Assembly (NCBI GenBank): GCA_016788465.1
Contig: JAEURV010000109.1
Coordinates: forward strand, 1-37,352
DNA: 37,352 nt
Direction: 5' to 3'
Source: Nitrospira sp.
GTDB taxonomy: Bacteria > Nitrospirota > Nitrospiria > Nitrospirales > Nitrospiraceae
The notes beneath the pieces were generated by a model. That model saw only the letters and a list, made by a program, of their open reading frames with translations. It did no database searches and was not told the origin of the DNA. Both the position numbers and the translations under genes were made by a program. This document shows, one piece after another, positions 408 through 24,941 of this stretch (position 1 is the first letter of the stretch; every line of letters begins with the position of its first letter).

Positions 408-509
408 CAGATGCCTCCTCGTCGACAGCGTGTATAGATAGGGTCATTGTGCAACAACGGAAATACATGTCGAGAGAAAATTGAAATCGCTACGTCGGAG
501 CACTTCCTC

Positions 510-1568
510 ATGTTGATACAGATTGAACGGTCACAGTCGACTTCGGTGGAGCAAGGCGCGGGATCGGTGTCGGAGCAACCGAGGCGACCAAGTCTTGCAC
601 GATCGCTCTGGGGAGGATTGAAGAATCTCGCCTTGCATCGTCCGCTGTTAGCCGTGTTTCAAGTCAATCTTCGCTGTAATTCTTCTTGCGGGTATTGCAA
701 TCTGCCGCTGAATGTCGGTCGCCATGAAATGTCGCGTAATGAAATTCGAGAGGCCTTTGCCAACCTCTATGAAGATGGGCTGCGGGTGGTATTTGTGCAA
801 GGCGGGGAGCCTCTACTCCGTCGAGACCTCATAGCGATTCTGGAAGATTTGCATAAAATCGGGTTTTATCTGACGGTGATCACGAACGGCACCAAATTGA
901 CCCTTCCGCTTGTCAAACAATTCGACGACCTGGGGATTTCCCTTTCGGTCAGTCTCGATACGTTGGATCCTTCCACGTATGAACGGATCCGTGGAGCGGA
1001 TCAGCTCGCTGTCGTCCTCGCCGGTTTAGAGCTCCTGGACGCCTATCGCCATCCGAAGTTCCTGACCTGCATCGTCAGTGAGGCGAATCGTGAGGAAGTG
1101 AGGGAGGTGGTGGCCTTCGCTCGGCAACGTGGTTTCTTGCCGGTCGTCGGCGCGTACCATTGGGACGTGGGACTGTATGGCAAGCAGGATGACACCTTGA
1201 TGTATGACCGCCGACAGGTTCAAGTGGTGTTTGAACAGCTGCTCAAAGAAGACCGCCTCCCTCCAGGCTATCTTCGGCAATATGCAATGGATAATGTCAA
1301 ATGGCTTGGTGGAGGAACACTCGCGCCTTGCGATGCGGGACGCTACAGCATTGCGATCGATGCCTCCGGGAATGTCTCGCCCTGCCTCTCGCTTTCTCCA
1401 GTCGGCAATCTGCGCGAGTCGTCTCTCAGTGACATCGTCTCGAGATTTGATCGATCGTCGATTCAGTCTTGCTCGGATCAATCATCGTGCAATCGGTTGG
1501 ATGGGCGGGTGATTGGGTCGGTGGTCAGGCATCCGATCGCGGCATGGCAGACACCGGTGTCATGGTGA
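510..1568 (+). CDS. radical SAM protein with SPASM-like C-terminal cysteines
   Basis: The product is a radical SAM enzyme of the MoaA/PqqE/SPASM type. The canonical CNSSCGYC motif (Cys56, Cys60, Cys63) binds the SAM-cleaving 4Fe-4S cluster, and GGEP (98-101) contacts SAM. Four further cysteines (about 274, 292, 321, 327) around PCDAGRYS...GNVSPC suggest an auxiliary iron-sulfur cluster, as in SPASM enzymes, although the set is shorter than a full SPASM domain. The frame is open from a TTG at 447, but the ATG at 510 has GGAG nine bases upstream and is preferred (352 residues). The last codons overlap the start of the next gene, so it probably leads a four-gene operon. The substrate is unknown. 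It is not an obvious ArsS, NifB or MoaA. Confidence 0.85.
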   Translation: MLIQIERSQSTSVEQGAGSVSEQPRRPSLARSLWGGLKNLALHRPLLAVFQVNLRCNSSCGYCNLPLNVGRHEMSRNEIREAFANLYEDGLRVVFVQGGEPLLRRDLIAILEDLHKIGFYLTVITNGTKLTLPLVKQFDDLGISLSVSLDTLDPSTYERIRGADQLAVVLAGLELLDAYRHPKFLTCIVSEANREEVREVVAFARQRGFLPVVGAYHWDVGLYGKQDDTLMYDRRQVQVVFEQLLKEDRLPPGYLRQYAMDNVKWLGGGTLAPCDAGRYSIAIDASGNVSPCLSLSPVGNLRESSLSDIVSRFDRSSIQSCSDQSSCNRLDGRVIGSVVRHPIAAWQTPVSW

Positions 1569-2380
1569 CAAAGAAGGGACGGTTCCGAATGTGGATGGTG
1601 GTCGGGGTGGCGGTGATGCTCACGGCCTGTTCCACTGTTCCGACGTCGTTTCGTCCCACGGATCCGCTTCGCCCGTATGAATTCTCGCACCGATTACTTG
1701 CTCACGTCTTTGCGGCACATGTCAAGGATGGCATCGTTGATTACCCGGCCGTTCAAACGGATGATCGTTTCCCAGCCTATCTTGCTCAGTTGGATAGGAT
1801 GGATCCCAATGCGCTGGCCACACGCAATGAGCGGATGGCCTTTTGGATCAATGCCTATAACGCCTTCGCCGTGAACGGTATCCTGGATCGATTTTCGCCG
1901 ACGAGCCTTGTGGGGCGCTATCGCTATTTCATCGGGCGGGGCTATCGAGTCGGAGGCAGCACGATCAATCTCTACGATCTGGAACGGCACGCGTTGATCA
2001 AACAGTTTCAGGAACCGTTGATCCATTTTGCCATTGTGTGTGCGTCCATGTCCTGTCCCAAGCTCCAGTCGTGGTCCTATGATCCAGAGCAGCTCAATAT
2101 GCAATTGGATCGTGTGGCCAGGGAGTTTATCAATGATCCCACCCGCAATCGGTTCGACCGCAAGAAAAAAGTGGCGTCGCTTTCGATGATCTTTAAATGG
2201 TTTGAGGAGGATTTCACGAAGGCGGCTGGTTCGATTGTATCCTACATCACTCGCTATGTGAATGACCCTGAACTGGTTCAGGATTTGATGCAGTCGGACT
2301 ATCGTATCGAGTATCTCGAGTACGATTGGAGCTTGAACGGCATTCCACCAAGGGAGACAACCTATGTTGGTCGGTCATGA
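1562..2380 (+). CDS. DUF547-domain lipoprotein
   Basis: The protein (272 residues from the ATG at 1562) starts with a basic n-region (MVTKKGRFR), a short hydrophobic stretch and a lipobox ending LTAC (Cys23), so it should be a lipid-anchored envelope protein. The body matches the DUF547 family: AFWINAYNAFAVNGIL and HFAIVCASMSCPKL are the characteristic conserved blocks. The family function is unknown; a cysteine-peptidase-like fold has been suggested, which is inference here. The chosen start overlaps the radical SAM stop (atggtga), implying translational coupling. An ATG at 1589 has a better ribosome-binding site (aaggga) but would lose the basic n-region. DUF547 proteins are often seen beside radical SAM and GT2 genes, as here. 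Confidence 0.82.
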   Translation: MVTKKGRFRMWMVVGVAVMLTACSTVPTSFRPTDPLRPYEFSHRLLAHVFAAHVKDGIVDYPAVQTDDRFPAYLAQLDRMDPNALATRNERMAFWINAYNAFAVNGILDRFSPTSLVGRYRYFIGRGYRVGGSTINLYDLERHALIKQFQEPLIHFAIVCASMSCPKLQSWSYDPEQLNMQLDRVAREFINDPTRNRFDRKKKVASLSMIFKWFEEDFTKAAGSIVSYITRYVNDPELVQDLMQSDYRIEYLEYDWSLNGIPPRETTYVGRS

Positions 2381-3056
2381 TGAGAAGGCCCCCATCGCGA
2401 GACTCTTAACGTTTCTTGAGCATGGCGAGCGGCTGGCCCATGACTGCGCCAAGGCGCAAGCCGGATTGTCCGCTGATTCCACGACAAAACGATTTTTGCT
2501 GAATCAGGCCAAACAAGAATCGATGCATGCCATGGTGTTTCACGGGGCAATTGCCTGGCTGGCCCCGAAGCACCTGCGTGATACGCCGTTTCTTCCTGCA
2601 TTGGAAGAGTATCGAGCGATTCTGAACGAGGCGTTGGCGCGCCGAGATCTCACGGAGACGTTCCTGGCCGAGCAAGTCGTCCTCGAAGGCTTAGGCGAGG
2701 CCGTCCTCACGCGTATTGAGGAAGGGTTAGCGAAGCGGGCGGCTCCGTTCGGACGGCTCCGTCTGGTCTTGCTGCACCAGGAGGAAGCGCACCATGGATT
2801 CGGCCGTCGTCAGCTTGAGCGAGCCATTGAATGTGGCGAGACCGATGTGACGGATCTCAATCGACGGGCGCAACGATACCTTGCCTTGACTGATGCCATG
2901 GTCTTCACGCTCTGTGACCTCTTTGAGAGTATCGACGAGGATGCCATAGCCTGGGCGCAGGATGTACGGACATTCTTACCGGACTGGTGTGTGATGAGCA
3001 GCCCGCTGTCAGCAGTCGATCATCAGCGGGTTAGCGCCGGATGTCTGATGAGCTGA
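2364..3056 (+). CDS. ferritin-like diiron protein
   Basis: This 230-residue, mostly helical soluble protein has the ligand pattern of a ferritin-like diiron four-helix bundle: Glu19/Glu22 in helix 1, E52SMH55 in helix 2, Glu103/Glu108 in helix 3, and E140EAHH144 in helix 4. Two ExxH motifs in separate helices, each paired with an upstream Glu, is the class hallmark and suggests an oxidase, oxygenase or oxidoreductase carboxylate-bridged site. It has no signal peptide, so it should act in the cytoplasm. It overlaps the DUF547 gene by 17 bases and is followed after three bases by the glycosyltransferase gene, so it belongs to the same operon. It may supply an oxidative step to the pathway that uses the radical SAM enzyme. 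The exact subfamily is not recognised. Confidence 0.75.
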   Translation: MLVGHDEKAPIARLLTFLEHGERLAHDCAKAQAGLSADSTTKRFLLNQAKQESMHAMVFHGAIAWLAPKHLRDTPFLPALEEYRAILNEALARRDLTETFLAEQVVLEGLGEAVLTRIEEGLAKRAAPFGRLRLVLLHQEEAHHGFGRRQLERAIECGETDVTDLNRRAQRYLALTDAMVFTLCDLFESIDEDAIAWAQDVRTFLPDWCVMSSPLSAVDHQRVSAGCLMS

Positions 3057-3059
3057 TCA

Positions 3060-3770
3060 ATGATTTCTGTCATTATTCCAACCTACAATGAAGAAAAAGC
3101 GTTGCCGAAGACGCTCCAGGCGTTGTTCTCACAGCCGGGTGAATTCGAGACGATCCTAGTCGACGGCGGCAGCACCGACCGGACGTTCACCATTCTTGAT
3201 GACTTCGAGTTCTGTCCCAGCTCACCCCTTACCCCTCACTCCTCACGCCTTGCATTCACCGCGCCGAAGGGTCGCGCCTCCCAGATGAATGCCGGGGCCA
3301 AGCAGGCAAGCGGCGAATGGCTGCTCTTTCTCCATGCCGATACGATCTTGCCGGACGGGGCGATTCAGCGGCTCAATGAAATGGAGGGGGATCAATCCGT
3401 TCAGGCCGGCGGGTTCATGCACCAGTTCTCCGGTGACGACTGGCGGCTGCAGTTCATTTCGTATTTGGATAATTTCCGCTGTGCTCGCAGTCGGATTATT
3501 TATGGTGACCAGGCGCTCTTCGTCCGGCGCGCCCTGTTTGAACAGCTCGGCAGGTTTCCGAATCAAAAAATTCTTGAGGATGTGGCTTTCTGCGAACGTA
3601 TTATTCAAGTGACCAATCCGCTCCTCCTCTCACCACCGGTTGTCACCGATGCTCGAAAGTTTATCAAGATGGGGATCTGGCGCAGCTTCGTTCGCGTGCT
3701 CCTCATCATCCTCCACGTCGAATACCGTCTGCCGGTTCTCCCGCGAATATTTTTTCAAGACGTACGCTAA
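3060..3770 (+). CDS. family 2 glycosyltransferase, TIGR04283-like
   Basis: The 236-residue product is a compact GT-A glycosyltransferase: SVIIPTYNEEKALP at the N-terminus, LVDGGSTDRT, the KGRASQMNAGA block, and the metal-binding HAD of LLFLHADTILP. It resembles the family annotated as rSAM/selenodomain- or arsenosugar-associated glycosyltransferase (TIGR04283), which fits its position as last gene of a radical SAM operon. The start is three bases after the ferritin-like gene stop, so translation is coupled. Between GGSTD and KGRA the protein is about ten residues longer than I would expect. That part (CPSSPLTPHSSRL) is encoded by a pyrimidine-rich, repeat-like stretch at 3221-3251. Donor and acceptor cannot be told from sequence. 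Confidence 0.85.
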   Translation: MISVIIPTYNEEKALPKTLQALFSQPGEFETILVDGGSTDRTFTILDDFEFCPSSPLTPHSSRLAFTAPKGRASQMNAGAKQASGEWLLFLHADTILPDGAIQRLNEMEGDQSVQAGGFMHQFSGDDWRLQFISYLDNFRCARSRIIYGDQALFVRRALFEQLGRFPNQKILEDVAFCERIIQVTNPLLLSPPVVTDARKFIKMGIWRSFVRVLLIILHVEYRLPVLPRIFFQDVR

Positions 3771-4152
3771 CCGTCTACTCTCTCTCCTGAGCTAACCCGG
3801 TCAAGTGCCGGTATGGTTGAACGTTTGCGCGACCGTGGGACGACCCACGGACCATGGTCTGGCAGAAATGAATCCATTTAGATACAGAATCCAATTGGAT
3901 ACACATGAGTGTTTATGAGGGTGCGGCAGGCACCAGACCGTGCTAGTTCTGAGATTTTATTAGATTTTGGGTAATTTATGCCTGCCTACATGTGTCTTGC
4001 GTGGGGCAATCTCACCGGAGTGTTGAGAGCGGGTGGGAATCTAAAATATTAACCAATTCTTATACGACAGAGCGTTGTGCTGACGATCTGAACTCGGTAG
4101 AGTCCCGTTAGCGTAACATCAGATGAGCTCACTCAATTCAAGGAGGCAGAGA
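3771..4152. other. intergenic region with hairpins
   Basis: No gene is supported in these 382 bases. A 7-bp stem with a 4-base loop (3833-3850, ccgtggg/cccacgg) is followed at once by the palindrome gaccatggtc; these may end transcription of the upstream operon, although no T-run follows. The second half is AT-rich and should hold the promoter of the cupredoxin gene. The best match is a weak TTGAGA (4023-4028) and TATTAA (4047-4052) with 18 bases between. A strong ribosome-binding site (aaggagg) lies at 4140-4146. Confidence 0.5.
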
Positions 4153-6015
4153 ATGAGCAAGGGGGTTACAGTATTTGTGCGTTCATGTTTGGCCATTGCA
4201 ATCGTCCTCATGGCTGGTTCAATAGTGGATCAGGTGCAAGCAAGCGATCCACGGATCGAATTTGAACTGACTGATGAACCGGGATCTTGGTTTCGAAATA
4301 AGGCTGGCGGAGGATCTCTGGCGGTTGCAACGCCGGGAACTGAAGTTCGGTTTTCAGGGAATTCCAACACGGTGCATACTCGCACGAGCCTGATTTTTCC
4401 GACCGGCGCAGTGAATATGCCATTTGACACAGCCCCGCGTAAAGGGTCGGACGAAGTGGTGCTCCATACGCCCGGGCTCTATGTCTTCACCTGCAAGATC
4501 CATCCGTACATGTTCGGTGCGGTGATTGTGGATAATCCTGCTACGCCGGGACTTGAACTGGGAAATAAGATCTCTTTGGTGCACTTCCCCGCCGGGGTTG
4601 GGGTCCCGACGGCGAGTGATCTTGCACTCAGGTTATTGCGCACGTTTTTCATCGCTACGAACCCTGCAAACTGGAAAGACTATACCAAGCAGGAGTGGAA
4701 ACCGAGTTATCCCGCTGTCCCAGTGATAGTGAGTGCTGATGGGGTGACGCCTGTCTCTCTGACCGCAGCACAGTTTACCGGAGCACTTGAGGCCTACGAT
4801 AAGGATAACGGTGTAACGATTAACCCAAACGGCCAATTGGATTACAATTTAGATCCGGCTGTCGGCGAGATCTGGGTGGATACGCAGTTTGAGAAGACCA
4901 GCGGGAAGAGCAAGCCGGGTACGGCGACGGCCATCAGCGGGCAAACGTGGCAGCCGACACGGAAGGTCGCGTTGCCGCAGATCAATATGAATAACCCTCA
5001 CAATATGTGGACGGATAAAAATCAAAACCTGATCTACCAGACGCAATGGTTCGACAGTAAGTTGACGGTGTTCAATCGGACAACCGGCCAGTTGGTGAAC
5101 AACATTTCCGTGGGGGAATCTCCGGCCCATGTGATGACCCAGGTCGGCAGTGACAAGGTTCACGTGACACTTAATGGAGTCACGGATCACAGGTCCGTGG
5201 TGGAACTCTCGGCGAATGCGGGAGGTATTCTCCGGAAAATCGATATCGGTGAAGGCAATCCTCACGCCCATTGGATGAGTCACGACGGGGACCTCATGGT
5301 GACCCCAAACGTGTTTGATAACAACACTACCAAGTATAAATTTTCGAATGATTCGAAGGTGCTCATGTCGACCGGCGCGTTGCCGATCGCAACGGGTATG
5401 ACGCCGGACTCTAAGAAGGCCTATGTGGCCAATCTCCTTGATAGCACGATTACCCGGATCGATACGCAGACGAACACGGTGCTGGCGCCGCCGATCAACT
5501 TGCTGGCCAAATACGATCCGGTTGGAGGTTGTTCGAATCCTTCTGATCCGGCGTTGGATTGTTCGTTCGTCGGGGCCTTGCCGATTCAAACACCCGTCAG
5601 CCCAGATGGAAAGAGCATGGTAACGGCCAATACGCTCAGCGGCACCATCACGGTCGTAGATCCGGTCACTGATACGGTTGTAAAAATGTTGCCCTGTGAT
5701 CCAGGCTGCCATGGGGTCCAATATGGGGCCAAGCAGGGGGGCGGCTACTATGCCTACGTGTCCAGCAAGTTCTCCAACGCGCTGATCGTCGTGGGTTTTG
5801 GTCAGAATGGAAATGCAGCAGACGCGGAGATTGTGGGACGCATTTTATTGACGGCCACAGGCAGCACCGCAAAAGATGCCAACATCACTGGCAATGCGGG
5901 AATGGGTGGGCAAGGATTGCTGACGATCCCCGTTGTCTATAATGGGTGGGTGCAAAACCTGCCACAAACCTGGAAAGATCAATTGGCACCCTCTCACCTG
6001 AATCCGATTCCGTAA
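4153..6015 (+). CDS. cupredoxin-YVTN beta-propeller fusion protein, periplasmic
   Basis: The 620-residue exported protein has a signal peptide (cleavage near VQA/SDP, residue 30) and an N-terminal cupredoxin domain. Its ligands form a complete type-1 copper site: His75, then C114KIHPYM120 giving Cys114, His117 and Met120. From about residue 260 to the end it has beta-propeller repeats of the YVTN/surface-layer kind (AYVANLLDSTITRIDTQTNT, TANTLSGTITVVDPVTDTV). The ATG at 4153 is chosen over 4123 because aaggaggcagaga precedes it. It stands alone between the GT operon and a strong hairpin at 6026. A role as periplasmic electron carrier or copper-dependent redox protein is inferred from the copper site; the propeller may bind a partner. 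It lacks the extra copper-binding domains of a multicopper oxidase. Confidence 0.85.
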   Translation: MSKGVTVFVRSCLAIAIVLMAGSIVDQVQASDPRIEFELTDEPGSWFRNKAGGGSLAVATPGTEVRFSGNSNTVHTRTSLIFPTGAVNMPFDTAPRKGSDEVVLHTPGLYVFTCKIHPYMFGAVIVDNPATPGLELGNKISLVHFPAGVGVPTASDLALRLLRTFFIATNPANWKDYTKQEWKPSYPAVPVIVSADGVTPVSLTAAQFTGALEAYDKDNGVTINPNGQLDYNLDPAVGEIWVDTQFEKTSGKSKPGTATAISGQTWQPTRKVALPQINMNNPHNMWTDKNQNLIYQTQWFDSKLTVFNRTTGQLVNNISVGESPAHVMTQVGSDKVHVTLNGVTDHRSVVELSANAGGILRKIDIGEGNPHAHWMSHDGDLMVTPNVFDNNTTKYKFSNDSKVLMSTGALPIATGMTPDSKKAYVANLLDSTITRIDTQTNTVLAPPINLLAKYDPVGGCSNPSDPALDCSFVGALPIQTPVSPDGKSMVTANTLSGTITVVDPVTDTVVKMLPCDPGCHGVQYGAKQGGGYYAYVSSKFSNALIVVGFGQNGNAADAEIVGRILLTATGSTAKDANITGNAGMGGQGLLTIPVVYNGWVQNLPQTWKDQLAPSHLNPIP

Positions 6016-6405: not shown

Positions 6406-7497
6406 TTAGGGTTTGACTGCAATCGGGGCGCGACGTGTGCGGAATTTGGCCAAGATGGGAGCCAGGATTTCATGCGCGTCGGGAGAGGTGAGTGACTCTT
6501 GCAAGCTCAGAAGCTTTTCTTCCGTCATCGACTCTAAACTCACTAAGGCTTCTCCTGCTCGATAGCGGACCCACCACTGGTCATCATTGAACAAACCGAT
6601 CAACCGCTCCTCATCGTCGACGGTTCCCAATTTCCCCAGCGCGGTTGCTGCTTGAACGCGGACATACCAGGCCCCATGGGTCAGATGTCGACGGATTATC
6701 GGTAGGTCAGCCTGATCGCGAAACTCTCCGAATACGAAGAGACAAGCGGCCAACATATTGTCTGAGGGACGGTGTTCGTGAACATATCGTCGCAAAATCG
6801 ACAGTCCGCTTGGGTTGTGTGTAATCGGTAGGTAGCGAATCAGTCGTGGGCCGACGATGGCGTTCCCGGTGACTGCGGCTTGGGCAAGGATATCCGAGGC
6901 CAGGGCCGGTCCCGCGGTATTCAGCATCGAAGCGATCCTAAGAGGCGACCAATCCGTTCGATGGCCGATCAGAGGGCGAAGGAGTGGAACGGCGGCTACT
7001 GCATCGATCCAGAGCAGCGCCTGAGCCGCGCTGAACGATAAGAACGGATTCTGATGGAGAAGAAGTGCGCAGATCGATGGCCAGGCTGAGTGGTCTCGCA
7101 AGCGCCCCAGTGTCATGACGGCCAGAATCCTTCGTCGGAGGAGTTTCGCCTGCAACAGATCCTTGGCGAAGCGGTTCGTGCCGACCTGTTGTGCCAGACG
7201 AATCAAGTACTCAGTGGTCGTCACCGGCGTTGCCTCGTAACACTCGTTCCAGAGATACAACAGGACGATGTGATCCCGGTGTGTGAGCGACGGCAGTGCT
7301 GTCATAGGATTGGTAGCGTCATGTTTCAACAGCGGGCGCCACCGGTCTGTCACACGTTGTTGTCTTCGCACTTTCACGCGACGATGGATTTGAAAGAGCA
7401 GCAGGCAGGCCACGAGCAGCAGATTGAAACAGCCGATCGACAAGGAGATCAGGTACCAGACTTCGAGCGGTACGGTGACATGATCCAGCACGGCCAC
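6406..7497 (-). CDS. membrane-anchored HEAT-repeat protein
   Basis: The protein has one N-terminal membrane segment (WYLISLSIGCFNLLLVACLL), a basic stop-transfer region (HRRVKVRRQQR), and then about 280 residues of HEAT/PBS-lyase-type helical repeats, for example WYVRVQAATALGKLG and WWVRYRAGEALVSL near the C-terminus. The basic residues after the membrane segment place the repeats in the cytoplasm. The frame opens at a GTG at 7530, but the GTG at 7497 has AGGAG six bases upstream and is preferred (363 residues). It is divergent from the processive glycosyltransferase at 7806. HEAT repeats are protein-interaction scaffolds, so it may assemble or regulate that transferase at the inner membrane; this is inferred from position. 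Confidence 0.75.
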   Translation of the reverse strand: MAVLDHVTVPLEVWYLISLSIGCFNLLLVACLLLFQIHRRVKVRRQQRVTDRWRPLLKHDATNPMTALPSLTHRDHIVLLYLWNECYEATPVTTTEYLIRLAQQVGTNRFAKDLLQAKLLRRRILAVMTLGRLRDHSAWPSICALLLHQNPFLSFSAAQALLWIDAVAAVPLLRPLIGHRTDWSPLRIASMLNTAGPALASDILAQAAVTGNAIVGPRLIRYLPITHNPSGLSILRRYVHEHRPSDNMLAACLFVFGEFRDQADLPIIRRHLTHGAWYVRVQAATALGKLGTVDDEERLIGLFNDDQWWVRYRAGEALVSLESMTEEKLLSLQESLTSPDAHEILAPILAKFRTRRAPIAVKP

Positions 7498-7805
7498 GGC
7501 ATACTCCTGAGTGCGGGTGAGCTCGTTCACTGCTGAGCGACTAGGGTGAAGCGTGAGGCGAGGAGACCGGTTCAGCTTCGTTCCACTTGGTCGCCTTAGC
7601 AGGAAGCGGACTCGTTGGCTGCACCGAGTGCCCTGGCCGGACCATACGAGATAGGGTCGGCTGTGACAGACGGGGCCTCAGCGAAGAAACCACGAAACAA
7701 TTAGCCGACTGCTGGCCACACACTATAACATTACTACGGATTTGCGCGGGGTCCAACACAGTCAGTGTAGTTTCCACAAGTTCCGGGTGCCACGTTGCGT
7801 GACGT
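7498..7805. promoter_or_regulatory. divergent intergenic region, possible promoter for the glycosyltransferase
   Basis: The 308 bases between two divergent genes contain no supported gene. On the plus strand, TTAGCC (7701-7706) and TATAAC (7724-7729) are spaced by 17 bases and could drive the glycosyltransferase gene with a leader of about 70 bases. The motif gtgaagcgtgaggcg (7546-7560) shares the gtgaagcg core of the dispersed repeats at 6225 and 21686. Confidence 0.35.
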
Positions 7806-9233
7806 ATGACGCCGGAAGCTGTTTATAGCATTTTGCAGTCGCTGTTCTTGTTCTACATGATCAGTGTGACCGGAGGATACTTAGCCCTCACCGTGATCTC
7901 CCTGGTCTCTCTTCGGCAGTACTTTGAAGAGCGTAGAGGAGATGCCTTCCCTCGTACCTTCACCGGCTATGAGCCGCAAATCAGCATCATTGTGCCAGCA
8001 TATAACGAAGCAGCGACAATCGCGAGTTCTATTCGATCTTTGCTGGAGCTTAAGTATTCTGAATATGAAATTATCGTCGTGAGCGATGGCTCAACCGATG
8101 GTACGATCGACGTGCTGAGGCGTGAGTTTAAATTGAAGCCATTTCCAGAAGCCTATGGCCATGAGTTGCCGACGCAACCGGTTCGTGCCACGTATCATTC
8201 CGAGATCTACGCCAATGTGCGGGTGATCGACAAGGAAAATGGGGGCAAGGCCGACTCCCTGAATGCCGGCATTAATTTGTCGGTGTACCCGTTGTTTTGT
8301 TGCATCGATGCGGATTCCATTCTGGCACAAGACAGTCTCTATCGCGTGGTGCAACCGTTCCTGCTCGATCATCGCACGATTGCCTGTGGAGGCACTGTCC
8401 GTGTCGCCAACGGGTGTTCCGTGGAGAATGGGCTATTGAGCGCCGTGGGGCTGCCATCCAATGTCCTGGCACTTCTGCAAACCGTGGAATATCTCCGAGC
8501 TTTCTTGTCCGGGCGTCAAGGCTGGTCGCCACTCAATGCGATGCTGATCATCTCTGGTGCCTTTGGTGTGTTTCGCAAAGAGGCTGTGCTGAAAGTCGGG
8601 GGGTACAGAATCGCCACGATCGGCGAGGATATGGAACTGGTCGTCCGTCTTCATCACTACCACCGGTTGAAGGATTTGCCCTATCGTATTACCTATGTGC
8701 CGGATCCGGTCTGCTGGACCGAGGTGCCGGAAGATATTCGCAGTCTCCGCAACCAACGCATCCGTTGGCAACGTGGACTGTGCGAGAGTCTGGCTGGTCA
8801 CTTTGAGCTCTGTTGTCATCCAAAGAGCGGGACGGTCGGGTGGCTGGCATTTCCATTCATGGTGTTATTTGAAGGGTTCGGCGCGGCCGGTGAGATTCTC
8901 GGCTATGGTTTGCTGCTCATCGGATTGGTTGCGGGATGGGTTTCGGTCCAAGGCTGGATCGTGTGCATGTCGGTCGCCATCGGGTTTGGTATCACCCTGT
9001 CCCTGAGCGCGCTGCTGATGGAAGAAATGACGTTTCATCTCTACCGTCGTCCATCGGACCTCATGAAATTGGTGTTGATCTCGGTTCTTGAAAATTGTGG
9101 ATATCGACAGCTCAATTCTTACTGGAAGCTGATCGGTCTTGTCCGGTGGATGCGAGGCACGAAAGCCGAATGGGGCAACATGATTCGATCGGCTTCATGG
9201 CAATCTCCACACATCCGTGCAGGAGGTCGCTAA
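7806..9233 (+). CDS. processive family 2 glycosyltransferase, membrane-embedded
   Basis: The 475-residue protein has an N-terminal membrane segment (about 10-35), a cytoplasmic GT2 domain and a C-terminal membrane region with at least two segments (about 350-415). Catalytic motifs of the processive BcsA/PgaC/hyaluronan-synthase type are all present: SIIVPAYNE (60-68), SDGS with Asp94, DAD (168-170), GED (273-275) and QRIRW (317-321). It should polymerise a sugar from a nucleotide donor and pass the chain through the inner membrane. The neighbouring TPR/YaiO barrel and secreted GH-like protein fit an exopolysaccharide system. It resembles PgaC more than BcsA because it lacks a PilZ domain. No strong ribosome-binding site is seen before the ATG. 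The sugar is unknown. Confidence 0.88.
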   Translation: MTPEAVYSILQSLFLFYMISVTGGYLALTVISLVSLRQYFEERRGDAFPRTFTGYEPQISIIVPAYNEAATIASSIRSLLELKYSEYEIIVVSDGSTDGTIDVLRREFKLKPFPEAYGHELPTQPVRATYHSEIYANVRVIDKENGGKADSLNAGINLSVYPLFCCIDADSILAQDSLYRVVQPFLLDHRTIACGGTVRVANGCSVENGLLSAVGLPSNVLALLQTVEYLRAFLSGRQGWSPLNAMLIISGAFGVFRKEAVLKVGGYRIATIGEDMELVVRLHHYHRLKDLPYRITYVPDPVCWTEVPEDIRSLRNQRIRWQRGLCESLAGHFELCCHPKSGTVGWLAFPFMVLFEGFGAAGEILGYGLLLIGLVAGWVSVQGWIVCMSVAIGFGITLSLSALLMEEMTFHLYRRPSDLMKLVLISVLENCGYRQLNSYWKLIGLVRWMRGTKAEWGNMIRSASWQSPHIRAGGR

Positions 9234-9315
9234 CTGTTTGAAGGATGGGAACTACTGAGAGGGCGGTGCGGACGAAGGCAAGTACAGGCTCATCGGTCGC
9301 ATCATTCGTTCGTTG

Positions 9316-11145
9316 CTACCAGTGATAGATAATGCTGAAGCTGGCTCCGCGTCTGGAATAGAGAGCTCCACGGTCTTCACCATAGCCCGAGACTTCCAAG
9401 GAGACTCGATCGGCTACGGGCAAGACAATCCCACCTTGGATGGTTCGACTGCTCACGCGAGTCACATCTTGCGTTGCGACGATCCGTTCGCCGGACGTTC
9501 CGAAGGAGCCGGATGCGAAGACTTGGAGGCGTTTGGTGGGACGCCAGGTCAGCCGTGACGAAAGCGTGACGGCGCCGGTTTCTGGAACGTAATACACCTT
9601 TTCTGTGAGCCACAGGTTGAATGGCAGAAAGATGGTCAATCCGGGGCTCAGTACATGAATGTCTTCCGTTTTGTAGGAGAGGTAGCGATAGCCGAAGGAG
9701 GCCTCAAACCTGGTCAGTACAGAATGCAAGAGGCCAAGTCCCTGGGAGAGCTCACCGGCAATCGAATATCTTGGTGAAAAGTCAGGATTGATGGTCCCTT
9801 GTGCGGCAAGGTAGCCCCAGGCACGACGCCACAAGGGACTATAGCCTTCAGTCGACAGAACGGTGTCATGAAAGCCGAATCGGTTGATCGGTTCAATCCG
9901 CGCTATGAGGGTTTGTGCGCCAATGGACTTGGAGGCCTCAAACAGGATAGCCCGTTCTCCCTGAATTGCTCGTGAATAGGAAAACTGGCCGTACCCGAGC
10001 TTGAGGTAGTCACGGAACGGTAAACGAATCGTCGCATCGCGAAGGCCAAGCGGGGCCTGCGGTGAGGATTCAATTGCTGCGATGATGTCCTGTATACGCT
10101 TCGCAACGGTTTCATCACCGGTCAACTGATAGAGCCTGGCATATTCCCTGGCGGCTGCTTCGGTTGCCCCGCTCCAGAACAAGGTGTCGGCCAGCCCCTG
10201 TAAGGCCTCTCGATTCGTCCCGTCCTGGCGAAGCACGGTCTGATATTGCTGGATCGCAGAATCGTACTGCTCTTGCCACGACATTATGCGTGCCAAGCTG
10301 ATCTGGACATCGAGATCTGAGGGATGGCGCGTGAGAATGTCGCGATATAGCGAGGCAGATTGCTCAAACTGTCTGTCTTGTCCCAAGACGCGCGCAAGGT
10401 GTCCCCGTGTGTCGTCGTCAGTCGGCGCATCGGTCAGGATTTGCTGGTAGACAGTGATTGCCTGTCTGTATGCTCCATTATGTTCCCATGCCTGCGCCTG
10501 TGCGAGCAGGTCTGCTCGGTCTTGGGGGGCTGGAGTTGGGATCGCAGTCGGCGACGGACGTGTCGGTTCAGGAGTGCCTTGTTTTATTGACGCAATGCGA
10601 TCAGCAATCGTCGAATCGTGACTGATGGCATAGGCTCGCTCGTAGTATGGGAGGGCCTCTTCGGTACGGTTCTCCCAGAACAAGAGATCTCCTAACCCTT
10701 GAAGTGCTTCCGCATGATGAAGGTCTTCCAGCACCACCTGCTCATAAAGGCGCTGGGCTTCCTTCCGATCCGTTTGCCACGAAAGTACACGTGCCAGCGC
10801 GGTGCGTACATCGAGATCGGCCGGATGTTTCCTCACGATCTCGCGGTACAGCTCCACCGCTTCGGCATGGGCGCCTTGCCACGACAACAGCTTGGCGAGC
10901 GTGGCTCGAACGTCGTCATTGTCAGGATCCTGGCGAAGCATCGTTCGGTATGTGGCGATCGCATCGTCATACCGTTGGGTCTGTTCAAACTGTTTGGCTT
11001 GCTCGAGTAACGAATGTGTTGATATGTCACCGGCAGCATACACCGGCTGGTATTCAACCATGCCGAGCACTAAGGCAAGGATCCAGATAATCGGCAGTCT
11101 AGGACTCTTTAGCACGAATCGGAGTGAGGTTGGGTTGGGCGTCAT
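9316..11145 (-). CDS. TPR-YaiO type outer-membrane beta-barrel protein
   Basis: The 609-residue product has a signal peptide (cleavage near VYAAG), two blocks of tetratricopeptide repeats joined by a Pro-rich linker, and a C-terminal region of about 225 residues with alternating amphipathic strands that ends in an aromatic residue (SIIYHW), as outer-membrane barrels do. The barrel resembles YaiO, which in E. coli lies beside a glycosyltransferase gene. Like PgaA or AlgK-AlgE, it could guide a polysaccharide across periplasm and outer membrane. The two TPR blocks resemble each other (VRTALARVLSWQ / VQISLARIMSWQ; EALQGLGDLLFW / EALQGLADTLFW), so one block was duplicated. The ATG at 11145 lies one base after the upstream stop (taagatg), which implies coupling; a longer frame from 11181 is unlikely. 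Confidence 0.85.
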   Translation of the reverse strand: MTPNPTSLRFVLKSPRLPIIWILALVLGMVEYQPVYAAGDISTHSLLEQAKQFEQTQRYDDAIATYRTMLRQDPDNDDVRATLAKLLSWQGAHAEAVELYREIVRKHPADLDVRTALARVLSWQTDRKEAQRLYEQVVLEDLHHAEALQGLGDLLFWENRTEEALPYYERAYAISHDSTIADRIASIKQGTPEPTRPSPTAIPTPAPQDRADLLAQAQAWEHNGAYRQAITVYQQILTDAPTDDDTRGHLARVLGQDRQFEQSASLYRDILTRHPSDLDVQISLARIMSWQEQYDSAIQQYQTVLRQDGTNREALQGLADTLFWSGATEAAAREYARLYQLTGDETVAKRIQDIIAAIESSPQAPLGLRDATIRLPFRDYLKLGYGQFSYSRAIQGERAILFEASKSIGAQTLIARIEPINRFGFHDTVLSTEGYSPLWRRAWGYLAAQGTINPDFSPRYSIAGELSQGLGLLHSVLTRFEASFGYRYLSYKTEDIHVLSPGLTIFLPFNLWLTEKVYYVPETGAVTLSSRLTWRPTKRLQVFASGSFGTSGERIVATQDVTRVSSRTIQGGIVLPVADRVSLEVSGYGEDRGALYSRRGASFSIIYHW

Positions 11146-11146
11146 C

Positions 11147-12814
11147 TTATCGCGTGAGCGCCAGATAGCCGGGCAGATCATGAATCATAAGCCCTGAGAA
11201 GCTTGCGTGATGAATCTTGTCGAACAGCTTGATGATTTCGTGCTGCAGGTCTTGTTCTGTACGTCCTGCAAATGAAATGCGCTCCGGGCGTATCATGGTT
11301 CGATGGTGAATGCGAAACCATATCGTCTGGTTCTTCTCCGGTGATTCCCTTTGAGTAGGAGGTGATAAGGTCAACCGGCGTCGGACAGGATCGAGCACGC
11401 CATCCGCCAAAGCGGCCCGGTGCTCTCGTTTCAAGATAACGTGCCGCTCGGGAAGCAGGTTTGTGGTCTCCAGGGCGAGCCAGACGGGCACATCTTCTAA
11501 CGCACCGTACCGAAGAATGTCGTCGCTGATGGCGATCACTTCGTTCATATCCGTGCGATAGCTCATGACGGCCACTTCGTCCACTCGATCCATGACCGAG
11601 AACGCAAGAGCTCGGTGTGCGTGTATGGTGGAGGAGAACCAGAAAGGAATCACCACCGAGAGTTGCGTTCGCCCGTGCAAGGCAGTTTTCACGCGATCGA
11701 TGGTGCCCAAATAGCGATCAAAGATCGTGTCATCATCAGGAAAGCCATCTAATAGATATGGTTCGATGTCTAGTTGCACCCCAGGAAGTCGTTGGTGTCC
11801 CATCAGAGCCAGCAACCGGTTGAGTTTCTCGATCAGCGGCGAGGCCTCATCGATCATATCCGGAGCTCCGTCGAGTGCGAACAAGTCAATGTCCGCCGCC
11901 TTGGTTGTAGTGAATAGTTTGGCATAGGCCGCCCATGTTTGGTCGGTGTCACGCATATTGGGCAGTTGGAGCAAGATCCGTCGGCAGTGCTGGTTCCGAC
12001 AGGCCGTTACCATGCGCTCAGGGTCTTGTATTGCCGAGCGATAGTCCCAATACCAAAACCCTATCGATGGAGTCGGATGAGGCTCGGATGATGGTCCTAT
12101 GAAGGCGAGTTCGTCGATGACCATGTCTGTATCTGTGTCGGTCACAAGTCGAACTTGAGCAAGCTGTCGGAGGTCGACCTGTCGTGCGGGTGAGGCCAGT
12201 GGTATCTCGAGCGAGAAGTGCCCGACCAGGCGTTCGACGACTGCATGGGTCCGCTGTGCGTCGACCAATTCAAGCCTCATAGGACGTGAGGCCGTCCCGC
12301 GTATACGGAGTGTTCGAAACGACAACGCATCCAGATGTCGGTCTGCTGTCTGCAGAGACCACATCACGCCACAGGGACCTGTTCCCTGCTGACCAATCCG
12401 AAGATGAAGCGGAGGGACGAGACCACCCCGGGTTGCCTGACACGAAGGGATGGGCTGTTCCACAGCAGTTTGGGCCAACAGATCTAGACGATCATCAGAT
12501 AGTCGATAGGAGGAAGGACCCAACGGAGTGGTCGTCTGCTGTCCGCGCACGATGATTGTGGGAATCGTTTGAGACCCCGCGTACACCAATTCAATTTCTT
12601 CGATATCGGTCAGTGAACGTTGTCCAGGAATTACCACCTCTTGGGTGAGGGCTATGGAAGGCCAGAGCCACCCTGCGATAACCATCACAGAGGCTGCCAA
12701 TTGTCGGTGCAGCCTTCTCGATGGTGAGTACTCAGGAAGCTGGCCGCACGCCATGGCGGTTGTGCTTTGTATCACGCCTGACACTCGAAACGATCTCCAG
12801 GGTATCTCAGGCAT
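11147..12814 (-). CDS. secreted GH18-like TIM-barrel protein with carbohydrate-binding-like domain
   Basis: The roughly 555-residue protein carries an internal signal sequence (SRRLHRQLAASVMVIAGWLW, cleavage near ALTQ) after about 30 extra N-terminal residues. Residues about 140-240 form a beta-sandwich ending in VIDELAFIG, like CBM11/CIA30-type galactose-binding folds. The C-terminal half looks like a TIM barrel: GVQLDIEPY (about 346-354) matches the strand-4 D-x-E of chitinase-like GH18 enzymes, and VAVMSYR (about 415-421) matches their Met-Tyr strand. It may cleave or modify the polymer made by the neighbouring transferase, comparable in role to PgaB. It is the first gene of a two-gene operon with the TPR/YaiO gene. 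The start at 12814 (ggaaagcATG) is favoured over the GTG at 12823; an ATG at 12754 is possible. Confidence 0.7.
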   Translation of the reverse strand: MPEIPWRSFRVSGVIQSTTAMACGQLPEYSPSRRLHRQLAASVMVIAGWLWPSIALTQEVVIPGQRSLTDIEEIELVYAGSQTIPTIIVRGQQTTTPLGPSSYRLSDDRLDLLAQTAVEQPIPSCQATRGGLVPPLHLRIGQQGTGPCGVMWSLQTADRHLDALSFRTLRIRGTASRPMRLELVDAQRTHAVVERLVGHFSLEIPLASPARQVDLRQLAQVRLVTDTDTDMVIDELAFIGPSSEPHPTPSIGFWYWDYRSAIQDPERMVTACRNQHCRRILLQLPNMRDTDQTWAAYAKLFTTTKAADIDLFALDGAPDMIDEASPLIEKLNRLLALMGHQRLPGVQLDIEPYLLDGFPDDDTIFDRYLGTIDRVKTALHGRTQLSVVIPFWFSSTIHAHRALAFSVMDRVDEVAVMSYRTDMNEVIAISDDILRYGALEDVPVWLALETTNLLPERHVILKREHRAALADGVLDPVRRRLTLSPPTQRESPEKNQTIWFRIHHRTMIRPERISFAGRTEQDLQHEIIKLFDKIHHASFSGLMIHDLPGYLALTR

Positions 12815-12861
12815 GCTTTCCACTGTATCGAGTTGGGTCGACAGATGAGACTTGTTTGCTC

Positions 12862-13083
12862 AATGCAACCTCCATCCTCTCGCTCAGGCAGTAAGACGAA
12901 CAGAGAAAGGGGGAGTATTACCTACAGGCCTTCATCGGATATAGACTGCAAATTAGCATCATTATGCCAGCATATAACGAAGCCGCTACAATCGCGAGTT
13001 CTATTCAATCTTTATTGCAGCGCCGCTATCCCAACTATGAAGTGGTCGTGGTCAACGATGGCGCAAAGAACGACACGATCAAT
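12862..13083 (+). pseudogene. decayed N-terminal fragment of a second GT2 glycosyltransferase
   Basis: Read in one frame, this stretch gives SILSLRQ-stop-DEQRKG, AFIGYRLQISIIMPAYNE, AATIASSIQSLLQRRYPNYE and VVVVNDGAKNDTI. It aligns with residues about 28-102 of the glycosyltransferase at 7806 (ISLVSLRQYFEERRGD, QISIIVPAYNE, AATIASSIRSLL). The codon matching TAC (Tyr39) is TAA at 12892-12894. DNA identity is very high over the first 65 bases of the catalytic part (12949 onward), then falls. Similarity stops near 13083 and the frame closes with TAG at 13141. There is no start codon, and about 370 codons of the family are missing. It is a broken paralogue that was divergent from the GH18-like gene. 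Confidence 0.85.
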
Positions 13084-13194
13084 TGGCAGAGGCTCCATTA
13101 CGTGGTTCTGCTATTTTCTGGACTGTCAACAATTCTCTGCTAGGATCCGAGCCATCGACGATATCGATGCATGGATGTGGACAAGGAGGTCCTG

Positions 13195-14751
13195 ATGAAG
13201 TTCCCCTCGATGCTTCTCGGGTTCGGTACTGTCTCTTTAATCCTCCTCGGTGCCTTGGCGCTCTCTGGTTGCTCAGGTGGGGGCGGCGGGTCCTCCGATA
13301 CTCTTGTGACCCAGCAGACTTATCTCAAGGCGTCGAACACCGGCGCGGGCGACTTTTTTAGTACTGCAGTGGCTCTTGATGGAGACACGCTGGTCGTCGG
13401 AGCTCCTTTTGAAGACAGCATCGCGACTGGAGTGAACGGCAATCAAGCCGACAACAGCGGAAGCGGCAGCGGCGCGGTCTATGTGTTCGTCCGCACAAAT
13501 GGCGTCTGGACCCAACAAGCCTACCTCAAGGCATCTAATGCGGAGGCTGGTGACAACTTCGGGAAAAATGTAGCCCTGAGCGGAGACACGTTGGCCGTGG
13601 GAGCCCCGGCGGAAGGCAGCGCCCTAACGGGGGTCACGGCCGGTGCCCCTAACGAATCGACAACCAGCAACGGAGCTCTGGGTAGCGGCGCGGTATATGT
13701 CTTCACACGGACGAATGGCGTCTGGAGTCAGCAGGCCTACGTGAAGGCATCGAACACCGGATCCGGTGACAACTTCGGTCACAGCGTCGCGCTCGATGGA
13801 AACACCCTAGCTGTTGGAGCAATTGAGGAAGCCAGCAATGCAACCGGGATCAATGGCGATGAGACGAACAATAGCGCCAGCGGCAGTGGCGCTGTCTATG
13901 TATTCACGAGGAGTGCCGGTGTTTGGAGTCAACAGGCCTATCTCAAGGCATCCAATACGGAAGCTGGTGACCAATTTGGTTTCAGCATCTCCCTGAGTGG
14001 TGAATCGCTGGTCGTGGGGGCATCTCTTGAAGACAGTGCTTTGACAGGCGTGACCATAAACTCGCCCAATGAAGGAGCGACGCTAAACGCGGCAGGAAAT
14101 AGTGGGGCGGCCTATGTGTTCACTAGGACGAGTGGTAGCTGGAACCAGCAAGCGTACCTGAAAGCGTCGAATGCACAAAGTGGCGATGAGTTTGGTAGCA
14201 GCGTGGCTCTGAGTAGCGATACGTTGGTGGTTGGGGCCAGTCTTGAGGATAGCGTTGCATCCGGGGTCAATGGTGATCAGACGAACAACAGTGCCAGCGG
14301 CAGCGGGGCGGCTTATGTCTTTACCCGTAGCGGGACGACGTGGAGCCAACAAGCCTATCTGAAGGCGTCGAATCCAGAAGTGGCTGATAACTTTGGTGCG
14401 AGTGTAGCCCTGAGCAGCGACACGGTCGTCATCGGAGCATTTAATGAAGATAGCAACGCATCCGGGGCCAATGGCGATCAGACGAACAACAGTGCCGGCG
14501 GCAGCGGGGCGGCTTATATCTTTACTCGTAGCGGAACGACGTGGAGCCAACAGGCCTATCTCAAGGCGTCCAATACGGAAACCGGTGACCAATTTGGCAA
14601 CAGCGTGGCCGTGAGTGGTGGACAGCTAGCTGTGGGTGCGAATGCGGAAGGCGGTGCGCTTACCGGTATCACCACCGGCTCGCCGAACGAAGCTGACACT
14701 GGTAACGGTGCAGCGATCAGCGGGGCCGTGTATCTGTTTGGCCCACAGTAG
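13195..14751 (+). CDS. FG-GAP repeat lipoprotein
   Basis: The 518-residue product has a lipoprotein signal ending in LALSGC and a Gly-rich stretch, and then consists entirely of seven repeats of about 66-72 residues, each with YLKASN...GD.FG..VALSGDTLVVGA...SGAVYVFTR. These are FG-GAP/integrin-alpha-type beta-propeller blades, so seven blades would close one propeller on the cell surface or in the periplasm. Blade loops come in two types, GVNGDQTNNS (A) and GVTxxSPNE (B), ordered A-B-A-B-A-A-B; blades 5 and 6 are nearly identical at DNA level. The start is fixed by aaggaggtcctgATG; the frame upstream to 13171 is not needed. Function is unknown; adhesion or ligand binding is typical of the family. 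Confidence 0.85.
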   Translation: MKFPSMLLGFGTVSLILLGALALSGCSGGGGGSSDTLVTQQTYLKASNTGAGDFFSTAVALDGDTLVVGAPFEDSIATGVNGNQADNSGSGSGAVYVFVRTNGVWTQQAYLKASNAEAGDNFGKNVALSGDTLAVGAPAEGSALTGVTAGAPNESTTSNGALGSGAVYVFTRTNGVWSQQAYVKASNTGSGDNFGHSVALDGNTLAVGAIEEASNATGINGDETNNSASGSGAVYVFTRSAGVWSQQAYLKASNTEAGDQFGFSISLSGESLVVGASLEDSALTGVTINSPNEGATLNAAGNSGAAYVFTRTSGSWNQQAYLKASNAQSGDEFGSSVALSSDTLVVGASLEDSVASGVNGDQTNNSASGSGAAYVFTRSGTTWSQQAYLKASNPEVADNFGASVALSSDTVVIGAFNEDSNASGANGDQTNNSAGGSGAAYIFTRSGTTWSQQAYLKASNTETGDQFGNSVAVSGGQLAVGANAEGGALTGITTGSPNEADTGNGAAISGAVYLFGPQ

Positions 14752-22292: not shown

Positions 22293-24941
22293 ATGGATGT
22301 GATCGCGACGCACGGCAATGCCGATTTTGATGGCCTCGCCTCGATGGTTGCCGCGAGGAAACTCTTTCCGGGAGCGAGGCTGGTGTTGCCGGCCGGAGCG
22401 CAGGAAGCGGTTCGTAACTTTCTCTCCGTTCATGATCTTAATCTCAGTAAACTGAAAGAACTCGACCTCGCGCAGATCACAAGATTGATTCTGGTCGATA
22501 CCCAAGAACCGAGTCGAATCGGGACGCTCACTTCCTGTCTGGAGAATTCCGCGGTCGAAGTCGTGGTCTTTGATCACCATATCGAGTCGGATTCCGTCTC
22601 TGCCGGATGTTCGAAACAGTCGGTGGTGGACTCGGTTGGAGCCACGACGACGCTGCTCATCGAGCAGCTCCAGCGGCGGCATATCCCAGTGACACCGTTT
22701 GAGGCGACCGTGATGGCCCTCGGTCTCTATGAAGAGACCGGGTCGTTTACCTTCGCCTCCACGACCAGCCGAGATTTGGTAGCCGGAGCATTCCTTGTCC
22801 AAGCCGGCGCGGATCTCAATATGGTCTCGGATACCCTCTACACACCGCTTGATCCGGATGCCGTTGCGCTGCTGAATGATTTCTTGGAGCACAGTGACGT
22901 GCTGTACCTGGAAGGCCGCAAAGTCCTCGTGTCCACGAGCACGATCGATCGCTGCCGCGGCGAAGCGGCCGGCGTGGTGCATCGCCTCGCCGAATTGCAG
23001 GGAGTTGATGCAGTTGTCGTGGCCGTCATGATGGCGGATCGTGTGGAAGTGATCGGAAGAAGTCGTCGACCTGAGATAGACGTCGGTTGGATCGCTCGAG
23101 AATTCAAAGGAGGAGGCCATGCCGTCGCGGCATCCGCCACAGTCAAAGGGCAGACGCTCTCAGAAGTCAAGGAGAAGGTCGTTCAGCTGCTGACCACACA
23201 CTATCGCCCGACCCTGCTGGCCCAGGATGTCATGACCCTCCCGGTGAAGGCGATCGAGACGGACACGACCGTTGCTGAAGCCGGACAGCGGATGACGGCT
23301 TACGGTCTGAATGTCTTTCCCATCTTGGATGAGAAGGACCGTTACACGGGGATCGTCAGCAGGGAGTCGATTCAGAAGGCGTTGTTTCATCGGCTGGGTA
23401 AGATGGCCGTGCGTGACATCATGCAGACCGATGCGTATACCGCGCGGCCGGAGACATCCTTTCATGAAATCGAAACCGCCATGATCGAGCGTAACCAGCG
23501 ATGTGTTCCGATCGTCAAAGAGGCGAAAGTCGTCGGTGTCATTACCCGAACCGATTTACTGCGAACGCTTCATGACGATGTGCTGAAGACCGCCAGAACA
23601 CGCACCATTCAACCAAGCGACGCTGGGACTGAGGCCGGAAGGCCACATCGCAATGTGAAGGGATTGTTGCGGAGCCGCTTGCCGCATCGCCTGGTGACAT
23701 TGCTGGAAGAGGCCGGACACCTGGCGGACCGCTGCGAGGTCTCACTGTTTGTCGTAGGCGGCTGTGTCAGGGATCTGCTGCTGGGCATTCACAATCTCGA
23801 CTTGGACCTCGTCGTCGAAGGTGACGGGATCGCGTTCGCACGAAAGCTCGGTGACGTCTATGAGGCTCGGGTCAAGGTGCATGAGCGATTCGGAACCGCG
23901 ATCGTGCTGCTGCCGGACGGCCTCAAGCTCGATGTAGCCACCGCACGAACAGAGTACTACGAGTATCCCACTGCCTTGCCGACGGTGGAACAGAGTTCCA
24001 TCAAGAAAGATCTCTATCGTCGTGACTTCACGATCAATGCCCTGGCCGTTCGACTGAACGGGAAGGGGTTCGGCGATGTACAGGATTTCTATGGTGGACA
24101 ACGAGACCTCAACGATAAAGTGATTCGCGTCTTGCATGGCCTCAGCTTTGTCGAAGACCCGACTCGTGTGTTCCGAGCGATACGATTTGAAACGCGATTC
24201 GGCTTTCGTTTGGGCAAGGACACAATTGCGTTGATTGCGGGCGCGGTCAAGATGAACCTCTTTCACCGACTGTCCGGCCATCGCTTGCTGGAAGAACTGA
24301 AATTGCTCTTTTCTGAACGCGAACCACGGCAGAGCATCAAGCGGATCGTGGATTTGGGATTGTTGCGATTTATCCATCCCAAGCTCAGCTGGTCCGATCG
24401 GTTGGATCGGTTGCTGGCTGCACTCGAAGAAGCGGTCGATTGGTACCGCTTGCTCTACCTGGATCGAAAGATGGATGTTTGGTTGGTCTACCTGATGGCA
24501 CTGGTCGAGGTGTTGCCGGAGCGTGCCGTGAGGGATGTGCTGAAGCGATTTCCCTTGTCCGAGCAAGAGGCCACCAAGCTCAAACTGGCCCGTGTGGGCT
24601 GTCATAATATCATCCGTCAACTCGCCTCGAAGCGGTCTCTCAAACCGGCGGAGGTATACCACCTCTTGTCGGGGCTATCCGATGAAACACTCATAGTCCT
24701 GATGGCGAAAAGCAAAGGAGAGATGGTCAAACGTCAGGTGTCGGCCTTTCTCACGACCTATCAACATGTGAAGCCCATAATGACAGGCACTGATCTCAAG
24801 GCCATGGGACTCAAGCCCGGACCGCAATTCAAACGGATACTTGAACAATTGCTTGGAGCGCGTTTGAATGGAGAGGTCAAGACGGAAGCAGAAGAACGGC
24901 AGCTCACGTGTCGTCTGATTGAAGAACCCAAGCGTGTTTGA
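22293..24941 (+). CDS. cca: tRNA nucleotidyltransferase (CCA- or A-adding) with DHH and CBS domains
   Basis: The 882-residue protein joins five domains. A DHH phosphoesterase domain (HGNADFDGLAS, LVDTQEP, FDHHIES) with DHHA1 (KGGGHAVAAS) covers about 1-305. Two CBS domains (about 310-430) follow. A class-II poly(A)-polymerase-type head (VVGGCVRDLLLG with LDLDLVVEGDG, and RRDFTINALAV) and the RNA-binding helical region (DPTRVFRAIRFETRFGF) complete it. The poly(A) part adds the 3' CCA end, or only the terminal A in organisms that split the task, as Aquifex does with a similar enzyme. All DHH metal-ligand motifs are present, so the N-terminal domain may be an active phosphodiesterase or nuclease. 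The CBS pair may sense adenine nucleotides. It is a single-gene unit with its own promoter-like sequence. Confidence 0.9.
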   Translation: MDVIATHGNADFDGLASMVAARKLFPGARLVLPAGAQEAVRNFLSVHDLNLSKLKELDLAQITRLILVDTQEPSRIGTLTSCLENSAVEVVVFDHHIESDSVSAGCSKQSVVDSVGATTTLLIEQLQRRHIPVTPFEATVMALGLYEETGSFTFASTTSRDLVAGAFLVQAGADLNMVSDTLYTPLDPDAVALLNDFLEHSDVLYLEGRKVLVSTSTIDRCRGEAAGVVHRLAELQGVDAVVVAVMMADRVEVIGRSRRPEIDVGWIAREFKGGGHAVAASATVKGQTLSEVKEKVVQLLTTHYRPTLLAQDVMTLPVKAIETDTTVAEAGQRMTAYGLNVFPILDEKDRYTGIVSRESIQKALFHRLGKMAVRDIMQTDAYTARPETSFHEIETAMIERNQRCVPIVKEAKVVGVITRTDLLRTLHDDVLKTARTRTIQPSDAGTEAGRPHRNVKGLLRSRLPHRLVTLLEEAGHLADRCEVSLFVVGGCVRDLLLGIHNLDLDLVVEGDGIAFARKLGDVYEARVKVHERFGTAIVLLPDGLKLDVATARTEYYEYPTALPTVEQSSIKKDLYRRDFTINALAVRLNGKGFGDVQDFYGGQRDLNDKVIRVLHGLSFVEDPTRVFRAIRFETRFGFRLGKDTIALIAGAVKMNLFHRLSGHRLLEELKLLFSEREPRQSIKRIVDLGLLRFIHPKLSWSDRLDRLLAALEEAVDWYRLLYLDRKMDVWLVYLMALVEVLPERAVRDVLKRFPLSEQEATKLKLARVGCHNIIRQLASKRSLKPAEVYHLLSGLSDETLIVLMAKSKGEMVKRQVSAFLTTYQHVKPIMTGTDLKAMGLKPGPQFKRILEQLLGARLNGEVKTEAEERQLTCRLIEEPKRV

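Follow-up and report, generated by a model that had tools for sequence, protein, structure and literature searches.

A probable synthase-dependent exopolysaccharide locus in Nitrospira with a HEAT-repeat protein as candidate regulatory subunit

The closest described counterparts of the locus studied here are synthase-dependent exopolysaccharide systems, a known kind to which this locus would add a HEAT subunit. The Pga/Ica system makes poly-beta-1,6-GlcNAc by means of PgaABCD, and the Pel and fungal galactosaminogalactan systems contain the CE18 proteins PelA and Agd3. PMC7229062 reports homologues of Agd3 from bacterial operons for exopolysaccharides that had not been identified before, where a GH114 gene is the usual companion. 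In E. coli, the yaiO-yaiX-yaiP-yaiS cluster combines a YaiO barrel with a GT2 protein (YaiP) and a putative deacetylase (YaiS). The Bcs cellulose and Sfz twisted-stalk clusters hold a GT2 synthase together with export and hydrolase genes; for Sfz, BcsB-like and EpsE-like/GT2 proteins are reported, and HEAT is not (PMC8250860).

The window, i.e. the whole stretch of 37,352 nucleotides analysed here, comes from a Nitrospira genome. The genus supplies the main nitrite oxidisers of treatment plants and soils, and its members are found in flocs and biofilms. A first-pass annotation had proposed four genes, coding for a HEAT-repeat protein, a processive GT2, a TPR/YaiO barrel and a GH18-like protein, as a candidate locus for polysaccharide synthesis and export. 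All four open reading frames are present, open and complete in the window, and the genes are real and were correctly placed.

The locus resembles Pga/Ica in having a GT2 nearest to PgaC, a TPR-barrel exporter, a PgaB-like hydrolase barrel and, in relatives, a deacetylase. However, the GT2 and the exporter of the window fall below the PgaC and PgaA cut-offs, the barrel is of the YaiO and not the PgaA type, and the deacetylase of the locus is a separate Agd3/PelA-type protein that is missing in the window. Further, the locus has HEAT as an additional component, and no gene like PgaD was noticed. With Pel and Agd3 it shares the three-domain fold of the relatives' deacetylase, but its hydrolase is GH18-like where the usual partner is GH114 (PMC7229062), it has a single GT2 synthase, it carries HEAT and a response regulator, and the window has no deacetylase. 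The E. coli yai cluster also joins a YaiO barrel to a GT2 and a putative deacetylase, but has neither a HEAT nor a GH18-like gene. The zetaproteobacterial stalk cluster was rejected as a match for the locus, from which it differs (PMC8250860).

The processive-type GT2 synthase (475 aa) is encoded at 7806..9233 on the forward strand, and matches the Pfam GT2 family at 9.7e-26. Its top NCBIfam model is PgaC_IcaA (TIGR03937), with 139.9 bits against a cut-off of 422.3. The protein stays under every equivalog cut-off, including that of the CelA/BcsA model TIGR03030 (36 bits against 699), and because it scores below the PgaC cut-off, neither linkage nor sugar can be read off from the match. An identity as PgaC or BcsA was rejected on these cut-offs, and one as YaiP because the identity is only 28% over 221 residues. 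In agreement with the first-pass annotation, the motifs of processive GT2 synthases (D, DxD, ED and Q(Q/R)xRW) are all kept: D94, D168, D170, E274-D275 and Q317 R318 R320 W321 are invariant in ten aligned sequences. Hydropathy places membrane helices at both the N-terminal and the C-terminal ends. The GT2 is predicted to make a polymer.

The candidate exporter (621 aa) lies at 9316..11181 on the reverse strand. The proposed TPR-plus-barrel layout is borne out by a TPR_19 match of 1.6e-32 and by the YaiO outer-membrane beta-barrel model TIGR04390, where the score of 69.4 bits is above the cut-off of 32; PF19413 is also exceeded (44.9 against 23.9). The N-terminus forms a signal-like helix by hydropathy. 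Against the PgaA exporter model TIGR03939 the protein reaches 60 bits of the 366.65 required, and a PgaA identity was rejected on this cut-off. E. coli YaiO gave no clear BLASTP match.

Overlapping this gene by 35 bases is that of a secreted GH18-fold protein (11147..12823, reverse strand; 558 aa, true start uncertain). It has no Pfam match up to E 1 and no NCBIfam match, and as a single sequence it matches nothing among the PDB sequences, while its profile matches one PDB entry (10yv, 'Putative GH97 from Cellulomonas fimi', 2e-13). An AlphaFold model built from 47 aligned homologues, from the window and related loci, reaches a pLDDT of 87.9 and consists of a signal-like helix, a beta-rich N-terminal part and a TIM barrel at residues 248-558. 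In a fold search the barrel comes out similar (Z 16-19) to the C-terminal domain of PgaB, to Cwp19 and to GH18 chitinases. The best VIA-align match is Cwp19, a cell-wall protein of C. difficile (19.3), followed by a putative chitinase domain (18.3) and the PgaB C-terminal hydrolase domain (17.0); PgaB C-terminal domains are found at 16-17 and many GH18 chitinases at 15-16.

A D-x-E (D352, E354) at the end of barrel strand 4, an M-x-Y (M420, Y422) at the end of strand 6, and Y356 are invariant in the 47 homologues. These strand ends are where the catalytic motifs of GH18 enzymes lie. The full DxxDxDxE motif is absent, with QxDxE replacing DxDxE and M-x-Y kept. Thus the chitinase-like D-x-E of the first-pass annotation holds at the level of fold, and the protein is not a GH18 by sequence models. 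No deacetylase domain was recognised in it, so it does not have the two-domain build of PgaB. The protein is a candidate hydrolase or processing enzyme for the polymer.

The HEAT-repeat protein (374 aa) is encoded at 6406..7530 on the reverse strand and matches Pfam HEAT_2 at 5.8e-24. Hydropathy shows a single N-terminal hydrophobic helix at residues 27-45, with six K/R within the next 15 residues and none before it. Following the positive-inside rule, this distribution means that the repeats should face the cytoplasm, and the HEAT domain is thus predicted on the same side as the GT2 catalytic domain. In nearly all relatives the gene next to the GT2 codes for HEAT.

In the window the four genes form three transcription units of opposed directions, as described before, but this is not a property of the system. 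Close relatives have HEAT - YaiO - GH18 on one strand with the GT2 divergent from GH18. In the window, YaiO and HEAT flank the intact GT2 instead. The site at which relatives have theirs is occupied in the window by the decayed 5' part of another GT2 gene (12778..13083, forward strand; codons 1-102, with one stop), which overlaps the beginning of the GH18-like frame. By tblastn this fragment is 68% identical to the GT2 of one relative (L114) and 45% to the window's own GT2. As the GT2 has moved and the fragment marks its usual place, the opposed directions are explained by a local rearrangement. Scans for promoters and terminators gave chance level only.

In a tree the remnant falls inside the clade of close relatives (99/98) and the intact GT2 outside it. 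The AU test, however, does not reject a common clade for both (p 0.243). Replacement of the window's GT2 from another lineage was therefore not adopted, a duplication within the locus being equally possible.

The four families also occur together elsewhere, so the lack of co-occurrence that was to refute the first-pass annotation is not seen. Presence was called from strong matches only, as weak GT2, HEAT and TPR matches occur everywhere. Among 35 Nitrospira genomes, HEAT, GT2 and YaiO are jointly present in 19 and jointly absent in 16, a grouping far from chance (Fisher 2.5e-10); in one of these calls (G027) the HEAT protein is divergent and was recognised by Pfam beside a fused gene. The GH18-like gene is found in 17 of the 19 and missing in two. 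One genome (G013) has, in addition to an intact locus, a second and decaying copy on its contig 59 (L019 / L145), with stops in YaiO and GH18 and a short GT2.

Scanning 84,980 species with a GH18 profile gave 77 loci. HEAT, GT2, YaiO and the GH18-like gene are together in 40, and 25 of these 40 also contain a deacetylase; many of the other loci are interrupted by contig ends. The full set recurs throughout Nitrospira as well as in Alpha-, Beta- and Gammaproteobacteria; Bacillota combine HEAT, GT2 and GH18-like. One locus in the collection (L139), recorded under the title Nitrosospira, groups within Nitrospira in both trees, and the title is probably wrong.

In 18 genomes with distant or odd GH18-like loci, a GT2 is present in 17 at E 3e-104 or better (one of them with two copies), and HEAT directly adjoins it in 16 of these 17, including Paenibacillus, Alkalihalobacillus and Brevibacillus. 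Beyond these 18 genomes, six further loci that were reached through the GT2 alone also carry HEAT. When relatives of two proteobacterial genomes were searched by the GT2 alone, it was found in only 7/120 and 3/78, each time with HEAT adjoining. The HEAT-GT2 pair is thus scattered among genomes, yet its two members stay together. When HEAT was searched among relatives of a Methylotenera genome, the query genome alone matched, consistent with patchy distribution or fast divergence of HEAT. The HEAT-GT2 stretch had no match in plasmid DNA, and no description of the pair was found in the literature searched, a search that leaves out most subscription literature.

GT2 and the GH18-like protein can also be fused. 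One frame of 1070 aa codes for both (L126:8266-11478), with the same gene in L176, and its neighbourhood runs in one direction as HEAT - GT2::GH18 - YaiO - deacetylase. The model of the relatives' deacetylase shows the three-domain fold known from Agd3 and PelA and aligns along most of its length with both, at Z 15.5 and rmsd 8.7 over 470 residues for Agd3 (6nwz) and Z 16.2 and rmsd 6.3 over 448 residues for PelA (9cgy). THDxD, SHTxxHS and RPG stretches are conserved. No three-domain CE18-type deacetylase is present in the window, and none was found in its genome in a search run without a positive control.

Another recurrent neighbour of HEAT is a single-domain response regulator, which shares 42-52% identity with the reference across phyla. 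In about a dozen Nitrospira loci it precedes HEAT at a distance of 13-24 bases, a count that is firm for directly abutting cases of ~131 aa and softer for some mechanically called frames of unusual length. In 10 of 16 HEAT loci outside Nitrospira it is located at most 2.5 kb upstream, and in four Brevibacillus loci it comes after the GT2. One Brevibacillus locus (L197) reads HEAT-GT2-response regulator-UDP-sugar dehydrogenase-GlmS-GlmU-GH18-GH18, and L204 has the same layout by its open reading frames. The clade of the window has neither deacetylase nor regulator at the locus, and the window, where both are missing nearby, is thus a derived and reduced version of the wider system.

Taken together, we consider it likely that this is a widespread synthase-dependent exopolysaccharide system, reduced in the window, in which the HEAT protein acts on the synthase. 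On our best reading it works like Pga and Pel on an amino-sugar polymer, but with parts of its own. The polysaccharide interpretation of the first-pass annotation gains from the Agd3/PelA-type deacetylase, the UDP-GlcNAc genes and the GT2-GH18 fusion in relatives, with the polymer itself still a matter of inference.

At the inner membrane the GT2 would build a chain from a UDP-sugar, an N-acetylhexosamine being most likely, and pass it across. This choice of sugar is supported by the resemblance of the GH18-like barrel to the PgaB hydrolase domain and to chitinases, all of which act on HexNAc polymers. In the periplasm the TPR part of the exporter would guide the chain, and the barrel would release it at the outer membrane. 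The secreted GH18-fold protein would cut or trim it, and in relatives the deacetylase would take acetyl groups off. The HEAT protein, anchored by one helix and with cytoplasmic repeats, would bind the synthase and set its activity as a candidate regulatory subunit. In relatives the adjoining regulator probably supplies the signal, with control presumably running from regulator to HEAT to synthase. The regulatory scaffold suggested for HEAT in the first-pass annotation is strengthened by this neighbour in many relatives.

It could be argued that the product of the GT2 is a short glycan, or that the enzyme transfers one sugar at a time onto an envelope lipid or protein, and that the barrel and GH18-like proteins take part in envelope remodelling. 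GT2 families are versatile, the window protein is below every equivalog cut-off, and a cell-wall protein, Cwp19, heads the fold matches. But QRxRW with flanking membrane helices is the processive synthase type, PgaC/IcaA is the best model, the partner is a TPR barrel, and relatives add an exopolysaccharide deacetylase and UDP-GlcNAc supply genes, so we regard this as improbable. Also improbable is a system that has decayed in the window and no longer functions, where the move of the GT2 and the absence of deacetylase and regulator would be steps of gene loss. Partial decay is possible even with all four frames open: the GT2 remnant contains a stop, no deacetylase match was found in the genome, and G013 holds a clearly decaying second copy. 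Nevertheless, the four genes have full length and kept catalytic residues, and close relatives that also have neither deacetylase nor regulator keep their genes intact. Further, a working GT2 was retained as the original one decayed, which points to selection for the function.

How far HEAT is part of a signalling path is a separate matter. It is possible, and we propose it tentatively, that a response regulator acting through a membrane-anchored HEAT protein forms a previously undescribed cross-phylum switch of a processive exopolysaccharide synthase, in place of the c-di-GMP receptors of known systems (such as PgaD or PilZ domains), and that the window lineage kept HEAT without regulator or deacetylase at the locus. 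Rather unlikely, in our judgement, is a polymer system where HEAT supports the structure or assembly of the synthase and plays no part in signalling. Such a role would fit the window and 13 of 14 deacetylase-free Nitrospira loci, where there is no regulator upstream of HEAT, and a proteobacterial regulator (L188) without the phosphoacceptor Asp. It fits less well with a conserved regulator that recurs beside HEAT across phyla, and with histidine kinases in some loci.

For many Nitrospira the locus offers concrete candidate genes behind a matrix polymer, and the HEAT-GT2 pair recurs in three phyla, often with a response regulator. If HEAT does control the synthase, exopolysaccharide synthesis would have a switch of a new type, testable in cultivable relatives among Proteobacteria and Brevibacillus.

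Some neighbouring genes in the window can also be described. At 447-3770 there is a set of radical SAM, DUF547, a 230-aa unknown and a small GT2, the last an arsenosugar glycosyltransferase by TIGR04283 (211.5 bits over a cut-off of 182); the set accompanies the locus in the relatives L116 and L118. A secreted beta-propeller (YncE-like) at 4123-6015 weakly matches clade III lactonase-type nitrous-oxide reductase (41.8 of 700 bits), and L114 has two beta-propeller copies around a multicopper oxidase. The lipoprotein-like product of 13171-14751 has seven FG-GAP repeats and a homologue after the GT2 in L114 and L116. Finally, 22293-24941 codes for an 882-aa fusion of DHH, CBS and poly(A)-polymerase head, near the A-adding tRNA nucleotidyltransferase at 841.6 bits, below the cut-off of 1440.
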